DNA of 64,000 nt from Isoetes taiwanensis (taxonomy: Eukaryota; Streptophyta; Lycopodiopsida; Isoetales; Isoetaceae): assembly GCA_021234155.1 (NCBI GenBank), contig JAJEKV010000017.1, forward strand, positions 17,060,372 through 17,124,371, given 5' to 3'. This document shows, piece by piece, positions 1-58,042 of this stretch. Position numbers and translations under genes: made by a program. The notes under the pieces are model-generated. The model saw only the letters and a list, made by a program, of their open reading frames with translations, made no database searches and was not told the DNA's origin. Positions within the stretch are counted from its first letter, which is position 1; every line of letters starts with the position of its first letter.

Positions 1-379
1 GGAGACACACTTGCTATAATAAAACCAAGCTCAAGCAATTCACGAGTTGCTTCTTGAGCTCATCAACTCGTGTGCTCATCCTGTATGGTGCCTTGTTGGT
101 AGGCTTAGCATCCGTGCTAATGTGATCTCACACTCCACACCCCTGTAAAGGTGGTAGCTGCCGGATTTCATCCGAGGAAATACATCCTTGAATTCGAAAT
201 AAGCCTTGCTCTTGGCTTGGGCAATCGCTTCCCCTTTTTGGTCGTTCCCATCCGCTTATTGGGCTCAATTGCCTCCAATCTCAAAAATGTAATCCACCTT
301 ATTTCTTTCTATACTTTTCCTTAGTCTGCTTCAAAGAAATACATTAATCGCATAGAAGAAGTCTGTCTTCTTACCTCTC

Positions 380-764
380 ACTATGAATTTGGTGCCGTCC
401 GGGTGTCTGTCATGGCGACTTCATTAAGATTCGCAATCGATCATGGCTTTAAGCTGGCTTTAGGAACTCCATTCCTACTATAAGGTCATACCTTCCAATC
501 TCCATGACCTCTGCCCCCATCGCCACTTACTTCCACTAAAGGTCTATGTCGAATGTAATCCTCCTCCCCTTAGTGTGCGAATGGAACCGTTTGCCATAGC
601 AACGGCCTTGGCTTAGACTTCAATACCTTGTTCTTCATTAGGGCAGCCAGCCTAGGAGGCGAAATTGTGAGAGCTACACATTGTCTATGAGGACTACATA
701 TGGATTGCTATCTATGATTCCATCAGCGATCATCCTTTGCCGGTGATTTTCTATATCACCCGAC
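380..764 (-). pseudogene. Gypsy protease / pol linker remnant
   Basis: Minus-strand frames show VVLIDNV at the position of the aspartic protease active site, where LIDSG/LIDTG would be expected. After about 60 codons comes RYDLIVGMEFLKP (about 495-455), the conserved 'YDxILGMxWL' segment that ends gypsy proteases. Stops interrupt it and the catalytic DSG/DTG is lost. Reverse transcriptase should continue leftward beyond base 1. Confidence 0.55.
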
Positions 765-1760
765 TCAATATTTGCCACAGATATGGCACTCACCATCTAT
801 GAAGTCCTGGGCCTCATGTTGGTCGTCGTCTTCATCTGCTTCTGTCGGCGAATCCCAATCCATAAGCTCTGCCAAGGCTGCCTGCATGACGAATGGGCAA
901 TCATGTGTTCGGTGCCCTGGTTGGAAGCACTTGAAACATAGCTTCTTCTCGATACATTCTCGTCTCTTCTCTTTCGTCAGGCTGTCTAGAATACGCTTTA
1001 ACATGCTGCCCCCGATGCATTGCAAACTACGGTCCCCAAAGTTCTTACCACGAGCTCTTCCTTGCTGCTGGCCTCGATGGGCGTAGTTGCTGATTGCTTA
1101 CTCTGTTGCTGCCCTTGGTGCTTTGTCCGTTGACTTTCCTTTGAAGGCCCATTTGTCTCTCACTGGCGTTCTTTGGAGCTTCTTCAAACTTATGGCTTTA
1201 TCCTCGGCTTCTTCCAGCGACTTAGGGTTGATTGCTTTCGGACTAGCCTTTTGATATTCTTTGTTCCGGTCCCTCAATGTAAGTTTCAACCGCTTGCCTT
1301 TCAGGAGACTCGGGAACATGGAGCTGAGTCGCATGAATTCCTACTTTGCTCTTGACAAGGTACCACGGTTCAATCGTAGAAGCCTTTGGATCTGCACTTT
1401 TGCTAGTATGTGACCTAGGTACATAATGTCTGCGAAGGCCTTCTTTGAAGGTCTTGAATCTGCAAACTGTTCCTTTTGAGCTTGTTGGACTTTGCATAGC
1501 CTTTCCACCGGATTCTAGCTGCTCCTATCAAGTTTCTTTGTAGCAACTTTCCCTATATCCTTATCCTTCATGCCATAAGAGTTGCGAGAACTCTTCCATC
1601 TCATCAAGCCGGGCTTACGCCACCATACGATTTTGTCCTTCCCGAGAACTGACCCAACTTCCTAGTCTTCCACACATTGCTCATAGCCTTTGTCAACTTT
1701 CTTTGATAATCATCTTCCTTCCTTGCCACTGGCTCTTGTGTGGGGAGGTGCGGGACTCAC
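765..1760 (-). pseudogene. Gypsy gag remnant with CCHC zinc knuckle
   Basis: Gag-like sequence is spread over several frames. Near 1600-1440 it reads LDEMEEFSQLLWHE and later FADIMYLGHILAKVQ. Near 1230-1170 it reads SLEEAEDKAISL, the usual 'LEEA' region at the end of retrotransposon gag. It ends in a clean zinc knuckle, CFKCFQPGHRTHDC (C-x2-C-x4-H-x4-C, 938-897), followed by an acidic tail. Gag packages element RNA. Multiple frameshifts make it non-functional. Confidence 0.7.
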
Positions 1761-2348: not shown

Positions 2349-3892
2349 TTAATTAACAAAACAAGTTTTCCATCGACGATGTCGCTTCATAGACTTGAAG
2401 AAGTTCTTGACATTCTTGAATCCTATGCCCTTGCCCATGTTCTGTAGGATTCTTGCCCCTGATCCTCCCTCCAATGCTCTTGCCATCTGTGGTGCCGGAA
2501 GTTCTGGTGCAGTTGCCGCCACTACTGACAAGTGCGCATCCCTGAGATGGCCCCTTGCGAAGTCGAGGGCATGAAGGGCTACGGATCTTTTGAAGAGGAT
2601 AACATGGTCCATTCCGTAATCTATCTTGGCATGTTGTCCGAAGCCTGAGAGTGCTATGAGGAGCGCCCGCAGTTCTTCACCCCTTGGGCTGAACTCCTTG
2701 TGGAAGACTATCATCCGCCCCACGGCTAAGGGCGGAAGATAGTACCCTCGAGTGATTTACCCTCGCTCGCCCCGTGGCTCCTGCATACTCCTCCTCCGAA
2801 GAGCTGCATCGCCCGAAAACATCTATTGCGATAAGATCTTCGTGGTCCCTCCACATTGTTGTTGCGTTCTCCATTGATGCCGCTAGATGCTTCACGATGC
2901 TCTGGAGCGACCGTCGGTCGGCTTGAGCTTGGGCTCTTCTTTGTACAACCCGCTTTGGATCTCCCGGAATTCTTCTTTCGAAATGGCCGGGTTGCTGCTG
3001 CTGAAACATCTGCCTTATCTGTTGGTACGCCTGGATGTCCGACATAGTTTCCCCTGCGTAGGAGTGTCGCTCGGCTACCTCCCTTGGGATCTCTTGGTAG
3101 GAGTAGTCGATGAAGTCACTGCCCTGCTCTTGTGCAATTAGGCCTAGGAGCTCATCGATCCTGAGGTCCTCTTCTTGACAATAGGGAAGGTTGAGAATAT
3201 CGGTGGCGAATATGTACTCCTCGCCGTCAATGATCACCGGGGTGAGGGCCGTGATACCTATTGGCGGGTTCCCGCCTTAGTACTTCCTGTTGCCGAGCTA
3301 GACGCTTCTCCATCCTTCTTGCCTCCCTCATCTCCCAACTTGGGTTCTCTTCCTCTTCCTCTTCGTAATCCTGCTCAATCTGCAACATAGGTGTTTCTGA
3401 TGTGGAGCCGTAATATTCATACTCCGCAGTCTCGATCTCGTGAATGCCTATCTGTGCCGTCCGGGTGTCGAGAGGTGCCAAATCCAAAGGTTGAATTGAC
3501 GGTTCCCCTGGTTGGTTAACTGCCCTGTACTGCATGAACAAAGCTAAGGCTGCTTGGTTTGAGACGTACCTATGCCTATGATGCTTACAGGTCATGTAGT
3601 CTGGCATGTTTCTGGTTCTATCCCACAGCCTACTCTTGCCCCTGGATCCCCCACCTATGGCTTGGGTAAGAGAGTCTAAGGAAACCCATTTCCCTCCCCT
3701 AGGTGGCAAGCTAACTTCCCAGGGTAGAATGTGCCGATCATATTGACAAATGATGTCAGTGTAGTAGGGAGTTCTGGTCAAGGTGGCATGAAGATCAAAG
3801 AGATGATCAAAGACATGAAAGGCTTGCTCAGCAGGGAATTCACGGATGTGATTGGAGTCATTGTACCATCTAACAAAGCTTGATGGCGCCAT
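2349..3892 (-). pseudogene. Unrecognised pre-gag ORF of the gypsy family (frameshifted)
   Basis: Three overlapping open frames on the minus strand (3892-3227, 3237-2677, 2723-2349) form one broken protein of about 510 residues. The first break lies near 3260-3285. In the downstream frame the sequence upstream of the internal Met reads ITALTPVIIDGEEY, which matches ITSLTPVIIQGEEY in the copy at 57473-58042. Shared blocks include RxMPDYMT near residue 90, PSIxPL, the GEEY block, RxDELL and SDIxAYxxIRQM. The middle is acidic (a run of Glu near residue 185), followed by an Arg-rich helix and a Gln run. I recognise no known domain. Retrotransposon gag follows separately downstream, so this is an extra ORF or a long gag N-terminal extension. 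Confidence 0.6.
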
Positions 3893-4636
3893 TGAGCAGA
3901 GATGGCTATGAAAAATGGCTGATGGGGATAAGCAAAGAGCTAGAAGATCGCCAAAGGGGCTGAGAGCATGCCTGATGGTGAGAAAATGACAAATGAGGGC
4001 CCTTTTTATAGACTAGGGGTGCCTCGGGTTCCGTGCACAGGGGTTCTTGATGAGGAAAGACTTCAAATCTATGGCCATGGTTGTCCAAATGAGCTACTAT
4101 GAAGTGCAATTCTAAGCAAAGCAAAGCAAGAAACACTACATGGCAGTTTGTTGGATCAAAATTGGTCAATTTGGCAAAATGGGCCGAAATCGGGATCGGT
4201 TCATTGTGAGTGGCTCTAGCGTTAAGTAACGCAGGCAGTATCCGCGTGATGCAACCCGATTTCGGGTCATTTCTATTTCTATGAAGAGTTTCGGGAATTT
4301 TAAAGATCCTAATATGACTTTATAGCATGATTCTAACCTAACTAGCAACTTTTGTTACTCAAATTGGACATCAATTAGTGACAGAATGCCGAAATCGGGT
4401 GGCATCGCGATGCGACCCGGTTTCGCCAATTTTCGCAATTTTTGAGTAATTAAGCTAGGATATTTAACTAATTAATTTTTCTTTGAACATCCCAATTTTA
4501 ATGATCAAAACTAAAGTAAAATTTGAGCTACTTAAACACATTTTCATACAAGAATTAAGGTCAGTTTGCACCAAAATTTTATATTTATAGGGGGGAAAAA
4601 CTTAACAATTACATTAATTTACGCAAAACTGCATCC
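3893..4636. other. Spacer between H3-like ORF and pre-gag ORF
   Basis: No gene is seen. The stretch is AT-rich with two related GC-richer hairpin segments (about 4171-4270 and 4389-4427), both containing CCGAAATCGGG-type sequence. Confidence 0.4.
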
Positions 4637-5034
4637 TCAAGGGTATTCCTTGCGGATGCGACGCGCCAAGTATAGATCCTTGGGCATCAGGGTTACCCTC
4701 TTCGTATGGATTGCGCAGAGGTTTGATTCCTCGAAGAGCTGGGTGAGCTCAGCCTCAGCGGCTACCTGCAACACCCTGGTTGTGAGCGGCGTCACCCTAT
4801 AGTCGATGACGAACTCCTGCATTACTTCCCGCATGAGCCGCTCGAACGGTGCCTTCCTAATCAGGAGATTAGTGCACTGTTGAAAGTGCTTAATCTCCCG
4901 GAAAACACGGGCGTGCGGCGAGTTAGGCCCGTGATGGACCTTCTTTGGCTTCTCGTGCGGGCGGCGGCTGGGCTGGTTCTTATTTGGTCCCCCCCCACAT
5001 AACGTTGGACGTTCGGGCGGCGATTACCGGTCAT
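4637..5034 (-). pseudogene. Divergent histone H3 (CENH3-like) ORF inside gypsy copy 1
   Basis: The last ~90 codons align end to end with histone H3: an alphaN helix ([17 protein letters not shown]), alpha1 ([14 protein letters not shown]), a loop/alpha2 equivalent, then the highly conserved [16 protein letters not shown] followed by [10 protein letters not shown] and the stop. The C-terminus matches the usual H3 end within a residue. The tail starting at the ATG at 5034 is about 45 residues, close to canonical length, but lacks the ARTKQTARKS motif and is Pro/Arg/Asn-rich. Tail and core are in different frames, offset by one base in a run of eight G (plus-strand C at 4989-4996), so this is either a one-base frameshift or a sequence error. 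The sequence [11 protein letters not shown] resembles CENH3 more than canonical H3, but loop 1 has the canonical length. There are no introns. It sits between the PBS and gag of an LTR element. Element cargo and host-H3 retrocopy are both possible. Confidence 0.75.
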
Positions 5035-5129
5035 TATACCTCGTCCAACGGCCGGAGGTATTCTTGGTATGCTTTTGAGGCGTTTGAAGAGGCTCCCTCC
5101 TTCGAGCGGTAACGATTAAATGTTTCGCC

Positions 5130-5767
5130 CTATATACGCTTCTTAACCACCTTGGGTGGCTTGGGCCACCGGGTAAAGGTGGTCTAGCGTGGGGTTTTGA
5201 GGGTTCCCCGGCTGCGTCTTCCTCGTCCCTCTGCTTCTACCTCCTCTTCTTCCTCCTCTACTTCCTCTTCTTGGCGAGGTTCGCCCGATAACGACAGTCC
5301 CGCGAGGGCTGTCGTTCCTTCTCTTTCGTCCTTCTCTCACACGCTCCCTCGGCTCCTTTCGCTCTCTCTTCTTCCTGCATGGCCAGCCCTCTCTTCCGGC
5401 CACTCTGCAGCCTTCTCCTTGCCCTTCTTCTTGGGCGAAGGGCCCGCCTCTTCAACACGCTCTTCAACTTTGCTCCTCAATCTGCTCCTCCACCTGCGTG
5501 TCAGGAGTGAGGCCGAAGTGGCGGGACTCGCCCGGTTCTCACAGGTGCCGCCCGACGAAGAGGCTGCTGCTGCTAAGGCGCCTCCTCCCTCCGAGCATCG
5601 TGATAGGTTTTGCGTCGGCTGCTGCTGGGGAAACTCCTCTTCCCCTTCTTAGGTCGAAGGTGCTCGGGAATTTTCTTAAGTATAATAGATCCTGCTGCTA
5701 CCGCTGCGCCATCGAGGCGTGGGTGCTCGCCCGAACTTCCTTCTTTATCTGTTTGGTCAGGAGCCAT
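5130..5767 (-). pseudogene. Decayed charged (Lys/Glu/Arg-rich) ORF in gypsy leader
   Basis: An ORF begins at 5767 (MAPDQTDKEGSSGEHP...) and runs 64 codons. The reading then shifts frame into a stretch rich in Lys, Glu and Arg with a run of acidic residues (about 5280-5230), broken by two in-frame stops. Composition alone suggests a disordered, nucleic-acid- or chromatin-binding region. No domain is recognisable. It lies directly upstream of the H3-like ORF and could have been part of the same transcript or even the same protein. An alternative is low-complexity noise in GC-rich sequence. Confidence 0.35.
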
Positions 5768-6323: not shown

Positions 6324-6335
6324 GCTCTGATACCA
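6324..6335 (-). other. tRNA-Met(i) primer-binding site of gypsy copy 1
   Basis: The minus strand reads TGGTATCAGAGC, the 12-nt complement of the 3' end of plant initiator tRNA-Met, one base inside the LTR edge. This fixes the orientation of the element and its 5' LTR. Confidence 0.9.
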
Positions 6336-6336
6336 T

Positions 6337-7972
6337 TGTGACGCTCCCTACTAAACATACGGTGCTCGACCGTACACTCGGCAGGAAATCCCTCATCCGG
6401 CTCATCAACCGCACAGGCCCTCCGTCTATCCCGCACTCTGGAACCTCCGTAGTGTAGGAAGGGGACACGAAGGTGTCTTGCGCGCCCTTCCCCTATGGGC
6501 TCCTATCACATCGGAAGCATAACACGTCAGAACTAGCAATACAATACAATATGCTACCTCGAGGGGTATCTCAATCGCATATCCATAGATGCAAAGAACA
6601 TAATCATATGCCATAAAACATGAGAGCTCCTACCCGTGGCCCCGACACGTAAGGTAGTCGACTGACTGGATAGGCCTCAAGATAGAGCAGGCCGAATCAT
6701 AACAATGGCGGGGCTGGCATAAGACAATGGCTAGGGTTGATCACTCCATCCGCCCCTCCCTGTGCATACTTTTGCGGATGGGCTAGATCAAGGCGGGTGG
6801 CATGACTCTAACCTTCCGGATCGCAATCCCATGGCATCACCCATTGGAACTACTCGGGTTGCATCTCCTGGTCCGGCCCGAGGTAGGAAGGGTTGCATCT
6901 CCCCTTCCGGGGTCTAGAGGCTCCCAGGCGGCTAGAGAATCGTGGCGACACCACGATTCGTACCCAGTGAACCCCCAAAACAAGTGCCAAGGCGACACTT
7001 GCAACTCTTGAGAGGCGGGGCAACACCATTGCCGGGGAGGTGTCGGACCCATGCTCGGCCCACCGCAATTGACCGACCATAAGCCCTAGCCCACTATGGG
7101 ATCCCCGAAGCCCCCACTCGGCGGGGATCCTCCCTCCATCTTGCCTCTAGCCCCGTTGTGTAGTCTTTGAGTCACATCATAGCTTCCATAGCGGTGGGTT
7201 TCCTATGCAAGGCCGCTAACTAATAGGAACTAAGGGATCTACACATACTACATATAGCCCTAGGTCTCTACCCCCTTCCCAATACAAGAGGAGCACATGA
7301 TCAACCAATATCACATACATCACATCATGATCAATATCAATATCATATGAACATCTTAACCTAACATCGTAGCTAACTCTTGAGTTAGGGTTCCTTGATT
7401 AGGGTTCAAGATGTTCAACAAAGGATCTAGGGTGGCTCTACTCTAGACACGAATCACTAACCCATCTGGAGTGCTAACTTCCAGATGAACTAACATGAAC
7501 TCTACTCAACCTACCTCCTCCAAAAGCGCTTCCTCCCATCCCTGGCGTCTCCATGCTCCTAGACGTGGTTCGAAGGCTTGCTCCCTCTACGATCATACAC
7601 ACCTTCCAGGGGCTGCTGCTCCAGGCTAGACTATGACGAACGGTGCTCGAAACGGGGTTTCGGGCACGTGGATGAGAGTTCAGGTGCTAGGTCAGAGAAA
7701 AGGGTCTAGGGTTAGGGTTAGAGCTCATATAGGTGTGGGTCCACGTGGGATGCCACGTGGCACCACTAAGATGAGGTCGTGTGGCGGTTGCCCAATAGGA
7801 TAAGGCCATGTGAAAATGGGCCTTATCCTAAGGTTATCTAAGTTAAACAATTAACTTAGATGTGCACCCCTTGCCACTTATCCAAGGCATACAAGGTTAC
7901 CTAGGTAGACTTGTATGGTGACGGGTCCAGGAATATACGTATTTATGGCGTATATTCCCTTGGAACGTCACA
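6337..7972 (-). repeat. 5' LTR of gypsy copy 1
   Basis: The LTR is 1636 bp and bounded by the perfect inverted ends TGTGACG / CGTCACA. Its inner edge lies one base from the tRNA-Met primer-binding site. Several blocks recur in the truncated LTR at 52116-53267, for example the stretches near 6740-6775, 7060-7110 and 7270-7300, and the outer terminus is the same. The matching outer LTR of this copy lies outside the window, so age cannot be estimated from LTR divergence. Confidence 0.8.
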
Positions 7973-8384: not shown

Positions 8385-8530
8385 TGATGAATTAAAGGCA
8401 CATAAGCAAATAAACTTTAAGAGCTTCAAACCTTCGACCTTAATATTTGATACTGTAGCACTTGTAAATCATTAAAACATCACTGTAGCAACAATCTGAT
8501 TCATTATGTACCCCCGAAAACACAAGCACT
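8385..8530 (-). repeat. 3' LTR of the copia element, distal part
   Basis: This matches 18006-18151 almost base for base (for example the ACTGTAGCACTTG and TCACTGTAGCAACAATC blocks). It ends where the 2.4-kb TIR element has inserted. The next 27 bp of the LTR are found at 10909-10935. Confidence 0.85.
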
Positions 8531-10908
8531 AACAAAGTTTAAAATGAAACGCACTAATTTGCTCAAAACGCACTTCAAAAGGAATCTTTGAAAGATTCCC
8601 TAAAATCCCCCCAAAAAGGTCCCTTTTTATGGTATATTTGTGACAAGTGTGACAATTTGAAAATTTTAGGCATCATTTTGGAGGGGGGTGTGAACTTAGC
8701 TTCCATTCAAAATTTTTGACATCCCTTTTTGGCCCCCCTAGTTTGGTTTGCGAAATAGTAATATTTTCAAAAACTAAACAAAATAGACATTGAAAAAAAC
8801 AGCAAGCACGCTAAAGTGCCAAAAAGGTATTTTATTCAAAGTTTTCCAAATCAGTACAAAACTATGAACAAAACTGTAAAAAATGCAACACATTTTGACA
8901 TTGCCTCATTGAAGCAAACATTTTCACATGAAAGTATGCCTCATTGAACAAACTTACACTTTGAAGCGCAAGTTGGAGTCGAAGACGCTCGCTCTTCGTC
9001 TTATATACTTGCTCTTATTTGCTCATCCGTCTTGCTATAGACTTATGTATACCGCGATGACAATGCGTGGACATAACGTCTTCAAAATAAATTTCTGGGT
9101 GGTATAGATTTATACCACAATAGGTAGTGTTGTGCGGATATGACATGCCAGAGAGTTCGCATGGTATAAATTTATACCGCAAGTGGACTCGAGCGGTATA
9201 AATTTATACCGCAAGAGGACTCGAGCGGTATAAATTTATACCGCGAGAGCTCTCTCGATTCACTGCGAGAGCTCTCACGGTATAAATTTATACCGTGAGA
9301 GCTCCCTCGTTATACCACGAGAGCTCTCTCGGTATAAATTTATACCGCAGAAAACCTTCAGACAACCAATTTATACACATATATGTGTATATATATATAA
9401 TATATACACATAATTACATATATATATCCGACAAGAAAAGAGAACTCTTGCGGTATAAATCTATACGGAGAAACGGTATAAATTTATACCGAATTGCATA
9501 TATATAAGCTCAATGATAATCAGGTACCAGCTTTTCCCACTTGGAGTCGGGATTAATAAATCTTAGGACTAGTCCAGAACGCCATCATCATGCTATTTAT
9601 AGGGTTCTATTTTATTCATTATTTTTTATTATTATCAAAATTTGTTAGATTATCTCCATATTCCTAGATGATAGCATGTTTTAGTAAGTATCATGATTAT
9701 AGATCCTGCATTGGGAAGGTTGCTATGATAAAAGCATATATATATACATATATATATATGCAGTCCAGATATAAAGTATATATCGTGTAAAATCTTTTGG
9801 GGTCTTTCTTGCTCGCCAAAGGGTTTGGCAACTGAAAACTACTAAAGTAACACACATAAGGGATAATTTTACACACTGTTCTTAGTTTTTTAGTGTAAAA
9901 AATTCTAAAACGGTTCTAAATTTTCTGATCTTGTAATGCAATGTTAGAGCATAAAGTAGTCGAATCATGTTGTTAATTCTACTTTTTTTTCTCTACATAC
10001 ATGCGAACTTCACTCCAGGCAGCTAAAAAATTGCTACTAAAGGCAAAGAACTCCAAAATATTATGGTGACACAGGTGTTTGACTAGAAGGAAACCACATG
10101 GTTTATCCAGAGGAGAGCGAGGAGTAGCAACCCCTCAGAAGTTTACCTATTTATTTACAAAATATATAGGAAAGGGTAAAATGACGAATACTTCCTTTGC
10201 GAGGAGAAATGTGCATGGTGCCCTCGCTGGATGGCGTAATTGTGATGAATATGCTCAACATTGCTAAGGAGGTTGACTATCTTTTGAGCATCACCATGTT
10301 GTAGATTGGTATGTCGTTCGGAAATACATCTCAGAATAAAAAGGAGGGCATGTAATCACATGGCTTCATTACTTCAACTTTTGTATCCTCGGTATAAATT
10401 TATACTGCATCATCAACTAAAACTTCAGCTTAACTACAAGACATCGTGGATGTATTGGTATTTGTAATACTATGTGATGCAAAAACAATGGTTTGTCATT
10501 CAAGAAGTTTGTTCAACTGCCTCCCAATGTGTTTTAAGGTCCATTAGGATGTTCAGCCAAAATGGTTGTGAAATAACAAATTTCCTGTCTTCTAAAACAG
10601 CTAATATAAAAACTTTCAGGGACAAGGTACAAAAGCATCTAATTTCTTCATATGAATTTGCCCCATAGCCAATCTTTGAATTTCATTGTAGTTCTTTCCC
10701 CCTCTACAATGGGATTTTTTTTTTGTGTGTGTTTTTCCTTAATACTAAGTCTTCTTAAAATGTCTGTTTTTACGAGCAGTTTTATAAATCTTTCGACTAA
10801 ACGTAATAAAAGGGCCCTTTTTAGAGGGATTTTAGAATTTTATAAATTTTTAGAAGGAATCTTCCAAACGCACTTCTTAAATAAGTGCGTTTCATTTTAA
10901 ACCTTGTT
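8531..10908. mobile_element. 2.4-kb terminal-inverted-repeat element (non-autonomous)
   Basis: The termini form 25-bp inverted repeats, AACAAAGTTTAAAATGAAACGCACT at the left and its complement with one mismatch at the right. They are flanked by a CACT duplication (8527-8530 and 10909-10912). Comparison with the intact LTR at 18006-18502 shows an insertion between adjacent bases of that LTR. A 4-bp duplication excludes hAT (8 bp), Mutator (9 bp) and Tc1/mariner (TA). Sola and Ginger elements make 4-bp duplications, but I cannot assign a superfamily. No transposase ORF is present; short ORFs inside have no recognisable domain. The centre holds a palindrome array (9101-9490). Confidence 0.8.
9101..9490. 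repeat. Array of GGTATAAATTTATACC palindromes
   Basis: Eight copies of a 16-bp palindrome lie at 9101, 9163, 9195, 9227, 9279, 9331, 9452 and 9475. Five are perfect and flanked by C/G so that they read CGGTATAAATTTATACCG or close, and a further copy is at 10391. Between them sits a second palindrome, CGAGAGCTCTCTCG, at 9243-9260 and 9318-9331 and in variants. They lie within the TIR element. Repeated binding sites for a dimeric protein, or cruciform-forming DNA, are possible roles. Confidence 0.85.
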
Positions 10909-11023
10909 CACTTACAGATTTGAAGCAGTGCACCAATAATAATAATAATAATAATAATGTATTGAATCATGCCCTTTTTGGACCTTAAGGTCATGGGGCA
11001 GCAAATGTACAATGTAAAAAACT

Positions 11024-11392
11024 TCATAAATTTGAAAGAAGAGAATGATGGGAATCTATATCCTTGATAAATCTACCAAGAGTATATGGTTCCATCTCAA
11101 AAATCAAGTGAAATCGCGCAATGTCTACACCATATTTCATCCTGATATGTGCATAAGCAGGACATTCCAGCAAAACATGTTTTTCATCCTCAATACTTCC
11201 ATGTGTGCAGAATGAGCATAACCTGTTTTCCTTCGGTACCCCTGACCATCTGCCCGTTTCTGACCTCAGGTGATGGGAACTCATCCTGTACCTTGCCACC
11301 ATATGTTTCAAATATCTCGGTATGTTTGAATTCAGATAATCGTGTTCACTGTAAATAACCATCTGATTTATTTCATCCAGATATTGCTGCAT
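11024..11392 (-). pseudogene. LINE ORF2 C-terminal zinc-binding domain
   Basis: This contains SSHHLRSETGRW, LCSFCTHGSIEDEKHVLLECPAY and HIRMKYG. It is the Cys/His cluster found after the reverse transcriptase in many plant LINEs (zf-RVT-like). It starts in a different frame inside the end of the endonuclease ORF. The same 'IEDExH-ACPAYxHIR' pattern occurs in the LINE tails at 39521-39717 and 49330-49510, so these three share a LINE lineage. Confidence 0.75.
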
Positions 11393-12441
11393 TCTACTTC
11401 CCTTCGACTGCCATAATCTAGAAAGCGCTTCCCCCTACGCATTGTTGTGGAAGTTTTCCCAAACGTGGCCTTTGCAGCATCCTCAACTATCTGTGAAAAG
11501 GCTTCAATATCTGCCTTTAAATAGCCTGACCAATAAAAGCCATCAAGCAAATCCTCTGAAGTATTTTTATAGATAGAATGCTTTTCATATGCTAACTTTA
11601 GCCTGTTTTCAACGTGTCTTATGCCCTGTTCTTTTGCAGATATAGCATCACATGCGATGTCAAAGAAGAGAGGAGCATGATCAGATTCCAGTAACTTCGG
11701 CCCTACTGTAAATCCCCTGATCAGGTCTGACTGTTTTGCTAAAACAAAATCAATTGCGCTTGCCCCGTTGTGTGTGATGCAGGTGTAACCACCAGAGTGA
11801 GGAAACATGTCAATCCCATTCAGTATCTTCAAGTCACAGGCGGTTCCAAATTCTAAAAACAGTCTGCCCATTGTGTTAGAGTCTTGATCAGCAGACTTCC
11901 TGGCATACCTCGCATCTTCCACTTCCTCTAATGTGACATTCATTGGCTGCGCATATGCTAAAGTCTGGTCTGATCCAATCCTCGCATTAAAATCACCAAC
12001 CACCATTACCTCTGCATGCTCCTGAAAAGCCATCACTTCTTTGGACAAATCATGAAACGGATTTGTTTTATCGAATTCCCTGCCTTCATACAATTTCATT
12101 TGCAAGGGAGCATAATAACATATTGCAATCATGAGAGTCTTATTTTTCAAACTGATTTCTATCCAGAGATGTTGATTCCGAATGTTTACCAAATGTGATA
12201 CCTTGTCCTTGACATAAACTGCTATGCCACCATGCCCTCGACCCATTTGTTTTGATTTCTCATTCCAAACATTTCCCACTAATTGGTATCTGAACAACAT
12301 AGGCAAAGCTCTTGCCTGATGTTGCCATGTTTCTGTCACGAAAACCATATCCATATCACTCCAAACATCATGAACTGCCTCCATTTTTGCTTGGTTTGCT
12401 CCATGTGCATTCCAAGCCATGCACCTTAAGGCCCGAAGTTC
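11368..12441 (-). pseudogene. LINE ORF2 endonuclease domain
   Basis: The apurinic/apyrimidinic-type endonuclease that nicks target DNA keeps its signature motifs. Counted from the Met at 12420 these are WNAHGA (residues 3-8), TETW with Glu30, VVGDFNAR (Asp143, Asn145), SAIDFVL (Asp224) and ESDHAP (Asp247-His248). It lies in frame with ORF1, separated by one TAG. After about 340 residues the reverse transcriptase should begin, but the sequence instead switches frame into the C-terminal zinc region, the mark of an internal deletion. It cannot support retrotransposition by itself. Confidence 0.8.
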
Positions 12442-13152
12442 CTATGTCCGCTTCCTGCTGGTAATCACCGCCTTGCCATTCCTGTCAAGGTATGCAATTA
12501 CACCATTTTCCCTTGCCTCCTTCACCTTGGCCCACTCCTTCTTCTTGATTTCATTCTGAGCTTGCGTTAAATCAGGATCTAACCATAGTTTATGGCCCTT
12601 TAGCGCAGCCCTGTTGGCCATTATCCTGTCCCTATCTTCCACCTTGTCAAATTTGACAAGAATAGGCCGATGGGAGCTTCCTATCTTTCCTAACCTTCTA
12701 CAGTGCACAAACCCTGGATTGTGCAGATGCATAATTTCTTTGAAAAAATGACCAATTACCTCTGTTGTATTCTCATTTTCGGCTTCCTGGAGACCGCTGA
12801 TTTTCAGATTTTTTGCTCTAAACTGCTGCTCACTTTGCTCTGCCGAGGTTTTCTCTAGGTTATCCCTAGTTGTGTCTGCCACTACATGCATAAGTTCTTG
12901 CTTAATTTCGTCAATACGAAATTCTTTATGCCTTCCAATCATGCCGACCAGTTCTTGATTTTGAGCCTTGAGCTCCTGATTTTGCTTGGATAAATCTGTG
13001 TTTTGTGTAACCGGGACCTGGACGGTTTGCTGTAAGGCATCCATTTACTGCTTCAACTCTTGTAACAGAGCTATGATTTGCCCGCTGTCACCATCGTATT
13101 CGACCAGATCACCCTTGCCAGGTGATCCGATGCCCTTCTTCTTAGGAGGCAT
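12442..13152 (-). pseudogene. LINE ORF1 (coiled coil plus RRM-like)
   Basis: The ATG at 13152 starts MPPKKKGIGSPGKG. After 35 codons a TAA at 13047-13045 interrupts the frame, which then continues to a TAG at 12444-12442. The middle (about 13040-12800) is a Gln/Glu/Lys-rich coiled coil. The next segment (FRAKNLKISGLQEAE, then RPILVKFDKVEDRDRIMANR and KGHKLWLDPDLT) has the layout of the L1 ORF1p RNA-recognition domain and its C-terminal extension. ORF1p binds element RNA. ORF2 follows in the same frame just seven codons after the TAG. Confidence 0.7.
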
Positions 13153-13189
13153 ACCCTAAAATTCTTTTTGCTTTGTGTGCTACGAGCGG

Positions 13190-13583
13190 TGCACGAGCGA
13201 TTCGCTGCCTTAATAATATTCCAGGTAGAAAACCCAGAGCTGGCGATTCACCGCTTAGCATCCAATTCCAGATAGAAAATCCAGAGCCACAAAACACAAG
13301 AAGTAGAGAGCTTCTGATAGCTTGCTAAGAACACTGCAGCATCAATCTAAGTAACCCATGAATGAATCTGTGTGAATCGGCCCATTACACCCGCTTCAAT
13401 CCAAATCCGGCATCTGCATCTGTGACAGCCGCTTCTGCTTCTATTTCCTTTTATTCGTTGTTAAATATCTCAGCAATATCATTTCATTTTATTATCATAT
13501 TAGACCCATCGTATTCCGCCACATGCCAAGCCATGCTAAAATTTTATTCCCCTTTTCTTTTGTGACATGATATAATATTAACA
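13190..13583 (-). repeat. 3' LTR of the copia element, first part
   Basis: This begins at 13583 with the same TGTTAATATTATATC as the 5' LTR and follows it to about 13196. There about 30 bp present in the 5' LTR are missing at the border of the inserted LINE. The rest of this LTR lies at 10909-10935 and 8385-8530. Confidence 0.8.
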
Positions 13584-13593
13584 CTCCTCCTTC
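13584..13593 (-). other. Polypurine tract of the copia element
   Basis: The minus strand reads GAAGGAGGAG directly before the TGTTAATA start of the 3' LTR, the normal plus-strand priming site. Confidence 0.75.
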
Positions 13594-13704
13594 ATGTCAC
13601 ACTGATGCCAATCCTTAGTTTGAATTTGTCACATTTATCCTCTGGCAAAGCTTTTGTGAGAAGGTCCGCAATTTGACTATTACTTGGCATATATATGACC
13701 TGTA

Positions 13705-16700: not shown

Positions 16701-17723
16701 AATATCAGAATCAGGATTGGATTTAGAAATTACCTCAACATCTTCTTCCTTAGTATCCGTTTCAACAGCTACATTAACTGCACTTGGTTTATCTTGACCT
16801 TTCCCCCTGATAGATACGCCTCGTGCCATACCTCCTCTTCTTCCTATGTTTCTCCCTGGATTCTTAGGAGAGGAACAATTAGAAGAAACATGACCTCTTC
16901 CACCACAATTATAACAAGAAATATCTCTAGCTAAGCTTGGGCAATTTGCTTTTATGTGACCATATGAATTGCAAGCAAAACATGGACCAATATTACCTCC
17001 TCTACCTCTTCGTCCACATCCACGTGTACGAGCAGCGGTATATAATATTTCAGTACCTTCATCATCATTCTTCACAACTTTCGTCTGTTCAATTTCCGTG
17101 CGAACCATTCTTTCTGCTTCTTCACGATTTCTGGCTACATTTCTTACAAGAATAGCAATCTGCTCGTATTCAGAAAAAGCTTTTGAAATAGCTAGTAATT
17201 CTGCCTCTTTTGAAAGCACATCACCAGCAGCTTTAAGATCAAATATTATCATATCTAAGGTTTGAAAAAACACTTCAAGATTATCACTATCATGATATTT
17301 GAGACGTCTTAATTCTTTTTCAAGAACATCTATCTGTGAGAAAGATTTAGTTTCGTAATTCTTAAGAAGATACAACCACATATCTTTAGGAGACAATCCT
17401 TGCAATCTTAATAGAATACTTGGGCCTACTTTGCTACAAATGATACCTATTGCTTTGCTGATTTTTGCAGATGTATCAGACGTACCAGCTTTCCTCTTGG
17501 ATTTGTCCTTCTCCTTTTTTACCTCTTCCTCACTTAGCTTGAGTTTCTCGAGTCTAGCCATGGCTTCTTGCAATTTGTCTGCTTCTTTTAGTGGCTTCAC
17601 AAGATCCCAGAGCCCTTCTGATTTCAAAACTCTTTTAATCTTTGCTTTCCATACCTGAAAACCGGATCCAGCATTAAACACCTCTACTGCACTTAATAAG
17701 GACGCTCCAAATCGTGTAGCCAT
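13705..17723 (-). pseudogene. Copia gag-pol polyprotein (broken into 6-7 frames)
   Basis: Domains in order: gag from the ATG at 17723 (MATRFGASLLSA), with two zinc knuckles CFACNSYGHIKANC and CYNCGGRGHVSSNC; aspartic protease with VIDSGAE; the GAG-pre-integrase segment (LWHERLAHTHIKN ... CxxCMLGK); integrase core (HTDLCGPM, FIDDYSR, QSDRGGEY, SPQQNGVAERKNR, ending near 15492); reverse transcriptase (GNKWIFKIKR, LVAQGFSQKKGIDYGETFSP, ALYVDDC); and RNase H (YADADWAGD, RKSTSGY, SSAKAEF). The D-D-E integrase residues and the YVDD active site survive. Frameshifts or stops near 16140, 15880, 15490, 14900, 14660 and 14370 inactivate it. The order integrase before reverse transcriptase is diagnostic of Ty1/copia. 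Confidence 0.9.
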
Positions 17724-17834
17724 CCTGTCCCTCCCTGCCTCGATCCCGGCTGCACACTCAAATGTCCTCATTTGCCTAAGCTTCCTTGTGTCCGCATCTT
17801 TTTGTTCTTTGTTCACTTCACTGGATTCTTCTAC

Positions 17835-17945
<111 letters not shown>

Positions 17946-17992
17946 AACAAATAAGAAGACACAACAAAATATATGACACAGCCACCGTACCT

Positions 17993-18004
17993 GCTCTGAT
18001 ACCA
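17993..18004 (-). other. tRNA-Met(i) primer-binding site of the copia element
   Basis: The minus strand reads TGGTATCAGAGC one base from the LTR end. It matches the PBS of gypsy copy 1 and is usual for plant LTR elements. Confidence 0.9.
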
Positions 18005-18005
18005 G

Positions 18006-18502
18006 TGATGAATTAAAGGCACACAAGCAAATAAACTTTAAGAGCTTCAAACCTTCGACCTTAATATTTGATACTGTAGCACTTGGAAATCATTAAAACA
18101 TCACTGTAGCAACAATCCGATTCATTATGTACACTCGACAACACAAGCACTTACAGATTTGAAGCAGTGCACCAACCTCAAATATAAAACTCCAGATTAG
18201 TGATTCGCTGCCTTAATAATATTTCAGGTAGAAAACCCAGAGCTAGCGATTCACCGCTTAGCATCCAATTCCGGATAGAAAATCCAGAGCCACAAAACAC
18301 AAGAAGTAGAGACTTCAATCCAAATTCGGCATCTACATCTGTGACAACCGCTTCTGCTTCTACTTCCTTTTATTCGTTGTTAAATATCTCAGCAATATCA
18401 TTTCATTTTATTATCATATTAGACCCATCGTATTCTGCCACATGCCAAGCCATGCAAAAATTTTATTCCCCTTTTCTTTTGTGACATGATATAATATTAA
18501 CA
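18006..18502 (-). repeat. 5' LTR of the copia element (intact)
   Basis: The LTR is 497 bp, starting TGTTAATATTATATC and ending TTTAATTCATCA on the minus strand, with canonical TG...CA ends. It is one base from the PBS. It matches the three pieces of the 3' LTR at high identity. On its outer side (18503-18541) it is preceded by the same ~38 bp, including the GAAGGAGGAG polypurine tract, that precede the 3' LTR. Confidence 0.85.
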
Positions 18503-52115: not shown

Positions 52116-53267
52116 GCTGGCATAGGAACATGGCTGTTGGGTAGTCCGCTCCATCCGCCCCTCCCGTGCACACTTTGCAGAGTAGATTGAAGAGTCTAGG
52201 GACTGGACCGTAGCCTGCCGGGTACGTAGCCAAAGGGGCTACTACTGGGTTGCATATCCCCAGTCCTGATGAGGCAGGAGGAGAGTCACTGCCTCCAGAA
52301 GCATGCATGCCCATCACAGGCGGCTAGAGGGCCACTGCCCGCATTCGACTTGAACCTCATTGAAGGTGACGCATCACCCAAGAGGTGTCGAGCTCATGCC
52401 TTGCCCACATGCAGTGGCAAATCATTAAGCCTAGCCCACTAAAATCCCTGATAGGCTTTACACACCAGAGGGATCAACCAATGATGGGACAAGTCCCCCT
52501 TATCCCACCGGTCTAGCCCTGCCATTCACAATTAGGCGGGCTCTTGTACACGGGCTGCATTAATTGGGAATTAATGAGGTTATCTAAAATCATCTGCTAC
52601 TGAAGGTTTCAGGGCCTCTACCCCCCTTCCCAATACACGGGAGAGCATAGAATGGAATGCCATCATCATCAAAGAACTGAAATACTGAATAATATCTAAT
52701 CTATCTACCTAAACATACATGGTTAGGTTCCTTCGTTAAGGCTGGTGATCTTAGGATCTATAAGGTTGCTAAGACTGATCTAACAAACTATCCTAACTCA
52801 TTGCCGGGCTAAGAGTCGGCTTTGCACAACAGAGTCACAGGTTACCTGATCCTTTGCTTGCTCCAGCTCCCCGAATCGCATCCATACCTTCGTTCTTGCT
52901 GAAGACAGCTGCTTTTGAAAGAACTATTGTGCAAATGCGGCTCGGCGGTGGCTGGCAATGCGGAATAGCAGCTTGGCTTGGCCGGAATGGCCCAAGGAAG
53001 CCAAAATGCAAAAATGAAAAAGGTTTAGGGTTTTCCCTTTTGTTCCTTTTACATGAACTTTTAGGTTTAGGTTAGAAGGGACCAATGCGGCTTTGCCACT
53101 TGGCAAAGGGGTTTAATTGCATATGTTTAATATACATGTGCAACATACGAGGTTGCCCCCTAGGCGCAACTCTTTACGGTTCTTAAGTACTTGTCATGGT
53201 AACATGTACATGTGACGTCGCAGTATAATATACATATTCGGACCGTATGTTATACTGGAACGTCACA
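52116..53267 (-). repeat. 3' LTR of gypsy copy 2, truncated
   Basis: This starts at 53267 with TGTGACGTTCC, as copy 1's LTR does. It shares blocks such as CTCCATCCGCCCCTCC and CCTAGCCCACTA. It ends near 52116, so about 370 bp corresponding to 6337-6710 of copy 1 are missing. Confidence 0.75.
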
Positions 53268-53280
53268 ATCTCCCCACCTT
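53268..53280 (-). other. Polypurine tract of gypsy copy 2
   Basis: The minus strand reads AAGGTGGGGAGAT directly before the TGTGACG LTR start. Confidence 0.75.
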
Positions 53281-54299
53281 GGATTGATGTTGTCCTCAGC
53301 ATCACGTGTCTCCCCTCCTTGAAAACCTGCATGAACCCTGCAACACATTCCATGCATACAATAATTTTACAACACAATTACCCCAAGATAATATTGGCAT
53401 GGCAACATTTTGATATTCAAGCAAGACAAGAATGTAATCTACATATTAAAAAAACATAATTAGAGTAGGATAGCACAACCGTATGGGAAGACGAATGTGC
53501 TCAATTCCATCAACTTCAGCAGCCCGTTTTTGGATTTCTGATATATCGACTCCAAAATATCTACAACATAGTTAAAGCCCCACAAATACATAGCTAAAGT
53601 TAACTCTTATCCTAGATATAATAACTACGCCAAAACTATGTCCATTGTCTATCAGAAAACCCTGGTCATCCCAAAGATACTGAATCATCATCTTTACAAC
53701 AAATAAGTTTAGATTTCATAATTATATCCTTGTTCGATAACATATTATAGTAAGCTGATCTCTCACCCTCCTACTTTATCATCTATTATTCATAAAATTT
53801 TATGGTTTGCACCATTATCATTAACATAGCTCCAAAATTCTCTAATTAAGGTTCCGTTTGGTCTCCTTTCAACACATTATGACAAAACATGTGTTGCATG
53901 TCTTCGCAGTGCGACCCCCCTGCTGCTAAACTTCTATTGGCCTGCAGGTCCAACACTACGTTAGTATACGTTTAATTATTATAAAGTTGGTTATTAGGGA
54001 ACCACCCATTACTTACAATTTATATGGATGCAAGGCTAATCTCCCGGTATAGGAAGATGATGTTTCTTCTATCTTGGCCGTGGAGACAGTGCTCTATCAT
54101 GCCTAAGATGATCACTCATGTCTACACCTTTAGTCGCCTTTGGCATAAAGGATGGCGTCCTTCCCGTAGTAGGCATTGACTAGAGGTGCTTTCCCATCAA
54201 CGCATGTCTAAATGACCCCTTATCTCTCAAGTTCGTCTACTTCCATAGCGACGGGAGTAGACTTCTTAATCTACCTCACACTCACCTATTGGTTCGGTG
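53281..54299 (-). other. 3' untranslated region of gypsy copy 2
   Basis: About 1 kb lies between chromodomain and polypurine tract with no recognisable coding sequence. Its AT-rich middle may hold older insertions. Confidence 0.4.
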
Positions 54300-55594
54300 T
54301 CGACTATTTCAGTGACGAGCCGATCCTTGCATTGCTCCATGAATTGGGGGTACTGCTTCTCCAAATCTGATTGTAGTACCCACATAGCGTCTTCCACAAG
54401 CAAGTGCGTCCATTTCACTAGGTATTAGAGAAATTGGGATCTTCTTATCTTCTTATAGGACCTATCAAGAAGAACCTATGGGACGATTTCAAGCTGGTCG
54501 TCCGTCATTTCCAGTAACTCTGTTGTCTCCAATACTTCCTACGGATTAGGAGTGTGCCTCTTCAAGAGATTTACATAGAAGACCCTATGGATTTTAAGAT
54601 GTGCTGGCAGATCCAACTTGTAGGATTGGTTACCTACTCTTTTGGTTATCCTGAACGGCCCAGCCCATCTTGGAGCAAGTTTCTTGTAATTGCCGATACG
54701 GAGCTTCGCTTGCTTGACCTTGATCTTCAGCCATACATTGTCCCCAACTTGGAACTCTCTTACTGTTCTGTGCTTATCATCTACACTCTTCTGCCAGCTT
54801 CTTGCTGCTATAAGATATCCTCTCAATTCTTCCACTAGCTACTGTATATCAGATAACATCTATTGAGAAACTTTAACCTTGGACACTGGATTGTGCCACG
54901 TATCTGGTGTCAAGCATTGATACCCATAATTGATCATGAAGGGAGGCATCTGGGAAGATTCTTGCTTGGTGCTATTATAGGCAAACTCCACCAAGTGAAT
55001 GAAGTCATCCCACTTAGATTGCTTGTTCCAGACATAGTTTCTCAACATATGTTTTATGATTCGATTCGTGCAATCCGTCTGCCCATCCATCTGAGGATGA
55101 TACGTCGTACTCATGGAGAGCTTTGTCTGAATCATGCTGAACAAGTCTTGCCAGAATGCGCTCATGAACTTTGAACCTCTATTTGAGATTATTTCTCTCG
55201 GCATCCCATGGAGTCTAAAGATCTCTTTGGTGAACAATACGGCGGTATCTAATGTTGTGTCTATGGTCCTGCACAACACAAAATGTGCCATCTTTGACAA
55301 TTTGTCCACTACTACCATCAAGGCATCTTTGCCCCTTACGGTTCTCGAGAGCCCTGTAATAGAGTCCATGCTTATTACTTCCCATTTCGCATTCAGCACA
55401 GGCAAAGGCTCTAATGCTCCAGGAATTCGGAGTTGTTTAGCCTTCGTCTGTTGACATAGTTGGCACTCACAAATGTACCTGGCTATCTGCTTCTTCATGC
55501 CGGGCCAGAAGTAGCTACTTTTGATCTTAAAATAGGTCTTTATAAAACCTGCATGTCTGGCTATTGGGTTGTTGTGTGTATCATGGAGTATCAA
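54300..55594 (-). pseudogene. Gypsy integrase with chromodomain (catalytically altered)
   Basis: The frame 55594-54860 begins at the HHCC zinc domain (HDTHNNPIARH ... CECQLC) and continues through the core: VISMD (Asp77), EIISNRGSKF (Asn138 where the second catalytic Asp is expected) and MDGQTDCTNRI (Asp174 where Glu is expected). After a break, 54835-54539 gives the C-terminal GPF/Y-type region (RWAGPFRITKRVG ... IHRVFYVNLLKRH). Beyond two stops, near 54435-54330, it reads YLVKWTHLLVEDAMWVLQSD, a chromodomain (YLVKW...ATWE pattern). A chromodomain directs integration to modified chromatin and marks the chromovirus lineage. Confidence 0.85.
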
Positions 55595-55728
55595 CTTCCC
55601 GACTCCCGATGACTCTTCTTATGGTACAATAGGTTACCTTCCTTCTTAAAATGCTTTAAGGTTCCCTCTCTTTGTTCGTTCTTGCCTCCTTAGAAAGGCT
55701 TGTCCATGCTTCCTTGAAGTCTCGGTCC

Positions 55729-57113
55729 ACCTTTGGGATGAGACAAATGGATGGAAACCTTGGGAAACAGTAGCTGAGTTAACAAAGGGTCACAGCTGGA
55801 CAGAAAGATCTACAAGGTAGTTATGGAGAAAATTAGGCATGTGGATGAACTGGCTAGTACCACTAATCAATGGCAGCTAAAGGGCAGTGAAATTTACTCG
55901 GTTAAAGAAATCTACAGGGCACTAATTAATCATAAACCCTCAAAGGCTACTTTGTTATGGAATTATGAAGAAGAGAAGCTGGCAGCAATATGCAATAAAG
56001 GATGGAAAAGCTACACTGCAAACAAAATAAAGGCATTTAGGTGGCTTATACTACACCAGGGGTTGACAACAAATTCGAGAAGACATAAGATGGATCCTAA
56101 TATCTCAAAGATGTGTCCAATGGGGTGTGGAGAGATAGAAACATCTAATCATGTATTTCAGTGTCAATTTGTTTCAGATTTTTGGAACTGGACTACTCAG
56201 ATCAACAAAGCATCAATGGGAGAACAGGGCCTTATAGAATTCCTAAATACTGATAATAGAATATTATGTACTACAAGGTCATTGGGCTGATGGGCAATAT
56301 GGAAGCACAGGAACAGAGTGGCAATGGAGAACAAGAATCCCAATCTCATATGGCTTAAACAAATTTTCCAAGCAGAATTGGCTAACTCAGCAGTGGCACA
56401 TAAGTCCCTGAGAGGAAAAAACTATGATAAAGGCTGGAATGCCTTTGGTAGATTTCAAGGTAATTATGAATTCTTTGTTCTTAATCTAACTGCTGGTGAT
56501 GATGTGTTACACAGATGCCATGAAGAGACTCAATAGATGTGGAGCTGTTGACAGGGGAATGGGAGTTGCAGAAGACTCGGATAGTGAAGACTCAAATCTT
56601 CCAAGTATTGAAGAGGAAGACATCTTTATTCAGCTAAAACAGGAACTCATACATGCTTCTGCACTTAAAAGGATTCTTAAGAAACCTGAAGCATGGAGAC
56701 ATAATAACCTTCGGCCATTTTTCATGAACTTGTTTCACAAATGGCAACAGAAAAGAGAGGCTCATGTCCTCTTACTGCTGGATTTCACAAACTACCCGGT
56801 GGCAAAATTGGATCTGTTACTCAATATCTTTGGCCGGAGGACAGTTCAAGACCTTACCATGCAAGACTTGATCGATGCACAATGAACTTTGCTGCTTTAC
56901 ATCTGAACTGTTTATTTATACGTCTGGACATATGATTTTTGATGTATGTTTTGTGTAACAGACTTAGATCTGACTTATAGCACAGTTCCTACTATACGGA
57001 ATGTGCAATTTTACTCATTGTATACCATCTATGGTATACTCCATATATATGTAAGTTTTTAGTATGAATATAAACTCCACCTTGACTCCAAAAAAAAAAA
57101 AAAAAAAAAAAAA
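55729..57113 (+). mobile_element. Poly(A) LINE (L1-type), 5'-truncated, 12-bp target duplication
   Basis: AAGTCTCGGTCC occurs at 55717-55728 and 57114-57125. Removing one copy with the intervening sequence restores the gypsy reading LPTDRDFKEAW across the junction. The insert ends in a run of about 25 A (57090-57115) after a short 3' UTR. Confidence 0.9.
55823..56885 (+). pseudogene. LINE ORF2 C-terminus
   Basis: WQLKGSEIYSVKEIYRAL begins the segment following the reverse transcriptase, then the zinc-binding motif CPMGCGEIETSNHVFQCQFV. A TGA at 56288-56290 replaces an expected Trp before WAIWKHRN. A frameshift near 56500-56530 leads into an acidic C-terminal extension (EDSDSEDSNLPSIEEED and beyond) ending at 56885. 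It is a 5'-truncated, dead copy of a different LINE lineage from the one at 10935-13190. Confidence 0.8.
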
Positions 57114-57125
57114 AAGTCTCGGTCC

Positions 57126-57295
57126 GTTGGCAACATTCCTTTTATCTTCTTGCCAAACTCCCTGGTGAGTGTTTATATAGCATGGCAATGGACTCTCGTC
57201 GTCAAGGGGTGCCTTGTGAGCACATCCGCAATCACATTGAGCTTGCCTGACTTGTACATGATGACAAAGTCGTACTCCTCCAGGAACTCCATCCG
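57126..57295 (-). pseudogene. Gypsy RNase H end
   Basis: The minus strand reads EFLEEYDFVIMYKSGKLNVI then ADVLTRHP. This is the last segment of gypsy RNase H (EYDFxIxYxxGKxNxxADxLSR). It is followed by KIKGMLPTDRDFKEAW leading to the integrase after LINE removal. It is joined at its 5' side directly to the pre-gag ORF, so gag, protease and most of reverse transcriptase are deleted. Confidence 0.8.
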
Positions 57296-57309
57296 GGTAG
57301 CTCCTGTTG

Positions 57310-58042
57310 TATCATCATCTGTCGGATGCCGGAATACGCTTCAATGTCTGATGATGACTGGCCAGAGTAAGTGTGGGTCTCCTTGATGCTGATGGGAAAA
57401 TCCTGTGTCTCCTGGTCGATGAAGTCATCGAGATCGGGCTATTGGTGTAGAAGGTGCAAGAGCTCGTCCACCCTATAGCCTCTCTCTACAGTTTGGAAGA
57501 TTCTTTATGTCGTGCAGCGTCAGGTATTCTTCTCCTTGGATGATGACTGGGGTTAGACTGGTGATGCCTAACCCAAGTGGAGTAGTTGTCCTCGTTACTC
57601 TCAAACCTTCTTCGAAGCCTTGAATCTCTTCTTGTGCCTGTTGCCTCTCTTGTATGGGGTCGACGTCGATGATATCTTCAACGTCGTAGCCTTGTCCTTC
57701 TTCGGTCTCTTCCTCCTGCTCTGAACCTGCATATTCCAGGAGCATTTGCTCTTCTGCTTCTGCTTCTGTGGCCATGAGTTCAATCTCCAGAGGATGAATG
57801 GAGGGTTTCCATATATGGGTTTGAGCTCTATGGGACAAAAAGATAGCTACAGCTGCAGTATAAGAGAAATACCTTTTCCTACTTATGGATACGGTCATGT
57901 AATCTGGCATGCGAGCAGCTTTATTTTCTATGTATTTATCTATGTTTCGGATATCATTCAGAGCTGCACGGAGGGCTATTATAGGTGCAAAATAGCTGTC
58001 TATCCATCCACTTGAAATAGGTTGCAGCGACAGGCTTTCCAT
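57310..58042 (-). pseudogene. Pre-gag ORF of the gypsy family, copy 2
   Basis: The open frame 58042-57473 (189 codons) contains RMPDYMT, PSIHPLEIELMATEAEAEEQ, an acidic stretch and ITSLTPVIIQGEEY. After a frameshift the homology continues (RVDELLHLLHQ ... FIDQETQDF ... SSDIEAYSGIRQMM) to about 57310, where the RNase H remnant begins. Comparison with 3892-2677 gives about the same order and spacing of blocks, so the protein was encoded by this element family. The function is unknown. Confidence 0.65.

Follow-up and report, generated by a model that had tools for sequence, protein, structure and literature searches.

A histone H3 gene carried as the first open reading frame of a multi-copy chromovirus-type retrotransposon family in Isoetes taiwanensis

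The element in the window

The window, the whole 64,000-nucleotide stretch of Isoetes taiwanensis DNA analysed here, opens with a decayed minus-strand copy of an LTR retrotransposon in which a histone H3 sequence lies between the primer binding site and the gag region. A truncated relative, copy 2, lies on the same strand further along. The features of the two copies are as follows.

6337..7972, minus strand: 5′ LTR of 1636 bp, TGTGACGTTCC...GGGAGCGTCACA (read from the sequence; the LTRs of relatives L016, L021 and L025 have the same termini)
6324..6335, minus strand: primer binding site (PBS) TGGTATCAGAGC, initiator-Met type (read from the sequence)
4637..5767, minus strand: ORF1, the H3 ORF, 376 codons plus stop, broken here (ATG in the H3 frame)
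5738..5767, minus strand: degraded H3 tail tip, reading MAPDQTDKEG (MARTKQT(A/Y)RK in 21 of 22 relatives read)
4640..4918, minus strand: H3 core, alphaN to C-terminus, open (PF00125, 1.1e-28)
2349..3892, minus strand: ORF2, decayed (tblastn with family ORF2s)
1179..1687, minus strand: gag capsid (tblastn with family capsid, 1.6e-9 and 2e-7)
768..1025, minus strand: frame with gag zinc knuckle CX2CX4HX4C (zf-CCHC, under the cut-off)
26..778, minus strand: protease region (tblastn, 1e-19)
53267..58042, minus strand: copy 2, truncated relative, from part of ORF2 to the start of the 3′ LTR
58042-57476, minus strand: copy 2, ORF2 part
57292-57122, minus strand: copy 2, RNase H piece
55615-54905, minus strand: copy 2, integrase
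54424-54272, minus strand: copy 2, chromodomain trace, partial and below the Pfam cut-off
about 53267, minus strand: copy 2, polypurine tract (PPT), then start of the 3′ LTR

Between 5023 and 4640 the minus strand is open for 128 codons, stop to stop, and encodes an H3 fold (PF00125, 1.1e-28; best PDB chain H3.1, 3.3e-28), so the intact H3 that a preliminary description had placed here, in the same orientation as the LTR, is indeed present; family H3s match its core at 54-59% identity (tblastn). The start assigned to it at 5034 had to be moved, because comparison by eye with the open frames of relatives L070 and L071 makes that position internal and puts the start at the ATG at 5767, as set by eye alignment with L070, L071 and L072-L091. 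The window H3 forms the C-terminal end of a longer ORF, the first of the element, which spans 5767-4637 and in this copy is broken by several frame changes between 5767 and about 4989 and by stops; a run of eight G lies on the coding strand at about 4989. A coding-potential scan of 5887-4600 picked out the H3 core clearly and gave a mixed result for the stretch upstream of it.

The LTR, whose ends read TGTGACG...CGTCACA (7972-6337), and the Met primer binding site (6335-6324) both lie upstream of the H3 and in its orientation, as had been described. The gag and protease reported downstream are there in part: capsid lies at 1687-1179 and protease at 778-26, but the ORF at 3892-2349 that had been taken for gag is ORF2, which family ORF2s match at 3892-3467 (E 0.002) and 2774-2445 (2e-4) in tblastn. 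Used as a protein query, the window's ORF2 drew 153 candidates, none at E<=0.001, and the open ORF2 of L021 (a 470-codon frame) has no Pfam or PDB match. Past the window edge the copy, whose locus is L029, continues with reverse transcriptase (RT), RNase H (RH) and integrase (IN) at L029 9899-7844, or 9899-7179 through the chromodomain traces (Pfam), and is colinear with the family element; no 3′ LTR was found for it within 9.9 kb. Both copies match Chromo in part and below the Pfam cut-off (E 3.8e-5 in copy 2, 0.0066 in the window copy), and the single L031 frame scanned with Pfam gave none; of the chromodomain previously ascribed to copy 2, what survives is a trace of this kind.

No H3 was seen upstream of ORF2 in copy 2, which is truncated. 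A 10-mer and a 12-mer at 58095-58116, upstream of ORF2 in copy 2, also occur, in swapped order, where the H3 ORF of the window's first copy ends (4601-4643), and are perhaps a trace of a lost H3, or chance. By eye, a poly-A-tailed LINE-like insertion on the plus strand (55780-57118) lies within copy 2 and divides its pol region. A promoter module duplicated upstream of H3 and ORF2 was considered and rejected: the local score of 68 exceeds the mean of 40 and maximum of 56 from 100 shuffles, but the composition is uneven. Elsewhere in the window, a Copia-like element was recognised by eye at 8385-18548, with one LTR seemingly interrupted; its pieces at 8385-8534 and 13196-13628 match 18006-18548 at 95-97%, and the 4.7-kb insertion includes a LINE-like endonuclease frame. 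An extended (GA)n tract lies at about 17840-17940. Palindromic repeats of the GGTATAAATTTATACC type occupy 9163-9480 (repeat pair, 80%), and a 1643-codon open frame on the minus strand at 26966-31897 reads by eye as a Helitron Rep-helicase.

A multi-copy family with H3 as its first ORF

The carrier of the H3 is a multi-copy chromovirus-type Ty3/gypsy LTR family whose first ORF is an H3 enlarged by a long N-terminal part, all copies described here coming from one genome, a 1.66-Gb assembly. A PF00125 search of this assembly gave 8705 loose candidates, 150 of which were scored. Fifteen of these run from profile position 2, and the five of them that were translated are canonical H3. The other 135 are not full canonical matches; they begin at position 4-25, lie in frames of 108-494 codons and are spread over many contigs. 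Twenty of the 135 loci were fetched, 18 picked for long frames and two short, and the 337-494 codons of the 18 are no estimate for the family, since they were chosen long. The LTR start motif is found in 19 of the 20, the exact PBS 12-mer in 16, a capsid downstream of the H3 on the same strand in 17, and knuckles homologous to the window's after the H3 in 11, at a distance of 3.3-4.0 kb in ten loci and 1.3 kb in one. The H3 cores of L016, L020 and L025 score 142-147 bits against PF00125. A further H3 C-terminal fragment (L023:1227-1352) lies within the same 10-kb locus at L023.

The element is ordered LTR, Met PBS, ORF1 with the H3 at its end, ORF2, gag capsid with knuckle, protease (PR), RT, RH and IN, followed by SH3_Tf2-1, a weak chromodomain, PPT and LTR. 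Pfam finds Ty3_capsid, RVP_2, RVT_1, RNase H, H2C2 and rve in this order in L021 and L031, and RT, RNase H and rve in L029. The far end was sought in 9.9-kb pieces for four elements, the window copy included. Both LTRs, the PPT AAGGAGGGGAGAA and target-site duplications (TSDs) are present in L016, L021 and L025, with LTR pairs 91.8%, 96.5% and 95.3% identical and TSDs of 5-6 bp (CCATT, GTGGC and GTGACC, respectively) outside the LTRs, enclosing the H3; in L022, on a 1.1-kb piece, the TSD is a match at four of five positions only (ACTGC vs ACCGC). As these duplications flank the element from LTR to LTR, the H3 moves as part of it. Repeats around the window H3, considered as marks of a nested retrocopy, gave no convincing TSD.

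ORF2 was also used as the query, so as not to select by H3, and 90 places were scored of 7250 candidates. A listed H3 lies 170-2044 bp upstream on the same strand at 35 of the 90, and none lies on the opposite strand within 8 kb of any of them. From the 55 places without a listed H3 we fetched the first 19 plus the last; 19 of these 20 encode an H3 there, several of them decayed; L051 has none upstream of ORF2. The H3 ORF at the same place in other copies, which the preliminary description had proposed to look for, was thus found at 54 of 90 ORF2 places and is absent from one, the other 35 lying outside the sample. With the window H3 itself as genome query there were 9061 loose candidates, and the 150 scored are the window and 149 other places 82-92% identical to it; by our count, 13 of these 150 rows contain an internal stop.

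The alternative offered at the outset was that a host H3 retrocopy sits inside one dead element. Such an origin would agree with the decay of the window copy and with the multiple H3 genes of the host, but the retrocopy is refuted by the H3s at the same place beside ORF2, by TSDs that run from LTR to LTR in three elements instead of surrounding the H3 segment alone, and by the 149 further places with the window's type of H3, and we give it virtually no credence. Nor is there a single recent retrocopy; there is instead a family of copies under purifying selection. That the H3 belongs to the retrotransposon, which carries an H3 variant of its own as the preliminary description had proposed, is strongly supported by its many copies, fixed place, TSDs and constraint.

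Types, constraint and descent of the H3

Four types of ORF1 were seen, with about 280-360 residues ahead of a complete H3 core. In types A-C the cores are 84-89% identical to host H3 and stand behind 315-363 residues for which searches gave nothing significant; A and B are 83% identical in the H3 core vs 32% in the N-terminal part. These types lack the ARTKQTARK tip, with 4, 2-3 and 4 of 7 matches to MARTKQT, and a reading of K9 as replaced by proline was dropped because the tail alignment shifts with gap settings. Compared with L021, L025 and L026 have capsids 95-96% identical, N-terminal parts 30-33% and ORF2s 43-49%. L024 and L021 share 90% identity in the LTR. The synonymous difference is greater in the H3 than in the capsid in 21 of 21 comparisons, obtained by pairing seven A copies with each of L023, L025 and L026; L024 and L012 yielded no comparison. 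Such sequences suggest that ORF1-ORF2 cassettes may have been exchanged on a related backbone, by recombination between types.

Type D, the window's own, was sampled as 16 copies, about every tenth scored row, with one row containing stops exchanged for its neighbour. Their cores have a median identity of 94% to one another and are 58-63% identical to host H3, and because they are so uniform, their distance from canonical H3 characterises the type and does not reflect decay. L070 (367 aa) and L071 (385 aa), picked for their open frames, start with the ten codons that open canonical H3, MARTKQTARK; after a charged spacer, their cores begin at residues 278 and 296. Twenty further D copies were taken by open-frame length, and 19 start with MARTKQT(A/Y)RK, L082 being the one without. 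Among the 21 tip-bearing copies, codon changes within the tip are synonymous except for A7/Y7, and the residue that follows the tip is A, P, T, F or Y, and S in none. When neutral drift was simulated from a host H3 coding sequence to the identity of the window core, 29 of 2000 runs matched, which is weak alone.

Selection was gauged as the median of pairwise Nei-Gojobori dN/dS, a comparison among element copies that had also been proposed beforehand. For the H3 core the median is 0.045 in type A (104 finite of 105 pairs, 15 copies) and 0.015 in type B (6 pairs, 4 copies), in copies taken from the top of the H3 score list and so biased to conserved ones, and 0.064 in type D (109 finite of 120 pairs, 16 copies). 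The ORF2-anchored cores, from 20 copies none of which is in the H3 list, give 0.093 (36 pairs, range 0.024-0.322) with nine of the 20 used as ungapped and 11 dropped. With the gag capsid at 0.031 (10 ungapped copies, 41 finite of 45 pairs), constraint on the H3 core comes within about a factor of three of that on an essential element protein. The N-terminal part has low values as well (0.110 in A, 34 finite of 45 pairs; 0.146 in B, 6 pairs), and is therefore constrained too in these types. At medians of 0.015-0.093, the H3 core in the copies sampled is under strong purifying selection.

The residues that we take to form the DNA and H3-H3 contacts are mostly kept: of 20 A-C copies, 15 differ at K64, four at R42 and one at R63, and of 17 D sequences, one each differs at R69, D123 and R129. 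The chaperone site at 87-90, SAVL or TAVL in the host, reads FAIL (15), HAIL (4) or FAVL (1) in the 20 A-C cores. In type D this alpha2 site is LTTR in all 17 sequences (the 16 copies and the window), and with the motif lost, host chaperones may not load the D protein. At position 89, nine ORF2-anchored copies have I in five, V in three and L in one.

In the tree, A-C form one clade (99/95) beside host canonical H3 (85/91), and were likely captured from an H3 of canonical type. D is a separate long branch (100/100), and a single origin of A-D is neither supported nor rejected (p-AU 0.08). D shares with CENH3 a divergent H3 core and a long N-terminal part, but the label 'CENH3-like' in the preliminary description is not established: a clade of D with the one CENH3 in the tree is likewise neither supported nor rejected (p-AU 0.46), the D core has no loop-1 insertion, and its tip is that of canonical H3 (MARTKQTARK). 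Arabidopsis CENH3 has a longer loop 1, and CRM elements target CENH3 chromatin.

In a set of 5.8 billion proteins the closest to the window H3 is P0001 (59% over 71%), which is no close relative; with longer proteins admitted, P0061 comes out on top (61% over 70%). Scans of viral and prokaryote contigs found no relative of the H3, and the viral contig scan none of the integrase. P0061, P0001 and P0040 form a separate long-tailed H3-like clade (99/100), which may represent a second mobile family that carries a histone, in a different genome. These three are encoded on ENA contigs of 240-424 kb.

Possible functions and precedents

We judge a role in marking chromatin for integration the most likely; next come the packaging of the element's DNA and an interference with silencing. 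In the first, which we hold to be an even bet and in which each functional step is inferred, the ORF1 protein would join host H4 through its conserved H3 core, and the pair would go into nucleosomes formed either on the host's chromatin or on newly made element DNA. The extension would be displayed on those nucleosomes and could guide or license the integration machinery, in which chromodomain traces follow the integrase. The H3 tail tip is the kind of peptide that chromodomains read. As the D extension starts with a free tip, ARTKQT(A/Y)RK, the element may provide its own docking mark; in this form, docking cannot apply to A-C, which lack the ARTKQTARK tip. A bolder and quite unlikely version is a self-written address, in which the H3 core would enter nucleosomes and a modified tip, on a charged spacer of ~270-285 residues, would be bound by the integrase chromodomain of the element itself and so steer insertion to chromatin of its own marking, sister types having swapped the tip for another N-terminal part on a related gag-pol backbone.

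It is possible, if on the whole unlikely, that the ORF1 protein instead coats or compacts element cDNA or RNA, in the particle or nucleus-bound, as has been proposed for giant-virus histones. The DNA-contact residues are kept, the host chaperone motif is lost in D, ORF1 lies upstream of gag, and the H3 core is about as constrained as the capsid, all of which would fit. Marseilleviridae histones also lack the chaperone motif, a loss taken as consistent with no assembly into nuclear chromatin (PMC9145170, available text). However, H3 alone was seen in ORF1, which would require recruitment of H4 (and H2A/H2B) from the host, A-C retain an xAIL/xAVL chaperone motif, and packaging has no need for a conserved H3 tail tip. 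We rate no higher a decoy H3 that would titrate silencing enzymes, H3 chaperones or readers, or form silencing-resistant nucleosomes, and so let the element escape repression. The D tip, with K4 and K9 kept and S never the next residue in 21 copies, is compatible with such a decoy, and bracovirus H4 provides a precedent, a histone that is incorporated into the nucleosomes of its host and whose extended tail suppresses host immunity (PMC9145170, available text); but A-C have no recognisable tail tip, and K9/K27 readings there failed with gap settings. A captured host H3 might also be of no use to the element and look conserved since the copies are young. Gene capture is known in plant LTR elements (PMC7264820, available text), and the placement of A-C beside canonical H3 makes such a capture likely for these types, yet the median dS between H3 copies is 0.47-0.70 at a median dN of 0.01-0.07, and there is synonymous variation within the tail tip, which makes a passive passenger very improbable.

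Whatever its function, the family resembles chromoviruses (CRM, Tekay, Galadriel, Reina, Tcn1-like) in its LTRs, Met PBS, gag capsid and PR-RT-RH-IN order, and in the Tf2-1-like SH3 domain and chromodomain traces after the integrase, but unlike them it has, between the LTR and gag, two additional ORFs, of which the first is a histone H3. Ogre has an ORF1 upstream of gag. The extra ORFs of the family are likewise upstream of gag, as are some additional ORFs of plant LTR elements, and as with such ORFs (env-like, antisense aORFs, Bs1 transduction) an extra ORF is present in most family copies. Unlike plant aORFs, ORF1 is a recognisable host chromatin protein and strongly constrained; the word 'histone' does not occur in an aORF review (PMC7264820).

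Single viral histones include the H4 of bracovirus and the H3 of xenomavirus, Dishui Lake phycodnavirus and Sylvanvirus, mostly with 73-89% host identity in the fold and some with an extended N-terminus (PMC9145170, available text). The family likewise has one host-like histone, with A-C inside that viral range, and V89I in 19 of 20 A-C cores recalls the SAIL/TAIL motifs of DNA-virus H3s described in the same text. It differs from the DNA-virus histones in its carrier, a multi-copy LTR retroelement, and in the more divergent type D; neither 'retrotranspos' nor 'retrovir' occurs in PMC9145170. No retrotransposon histone appears in the available text of PMC7264820, PMC5348765, PMC5408684, PMC3350952 and PMC9145170, and full-text literature searches, with subscription papers and preprints outside their scope, returned no histone-coding retrotransposon. 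In the literature searched, histones of selfish elements are described for DNA viruses only.

If an H3 gene is held under capsid-like constraint in this family, retroelements would have a new means of acting on chromatin. With thousands of loose candidates, at least four ORF1 types, related backbones and insertion sites as a readout, the genome also offers a natural experiment. The family is a warning for annotation as well, since such genomes may appear to contain very many 'histone H3' genes and surveys of H3 variants may be counting transposons. The tight constraint on the H3 in the copies sampled suggests that these elements exploit their own chromatin protein.
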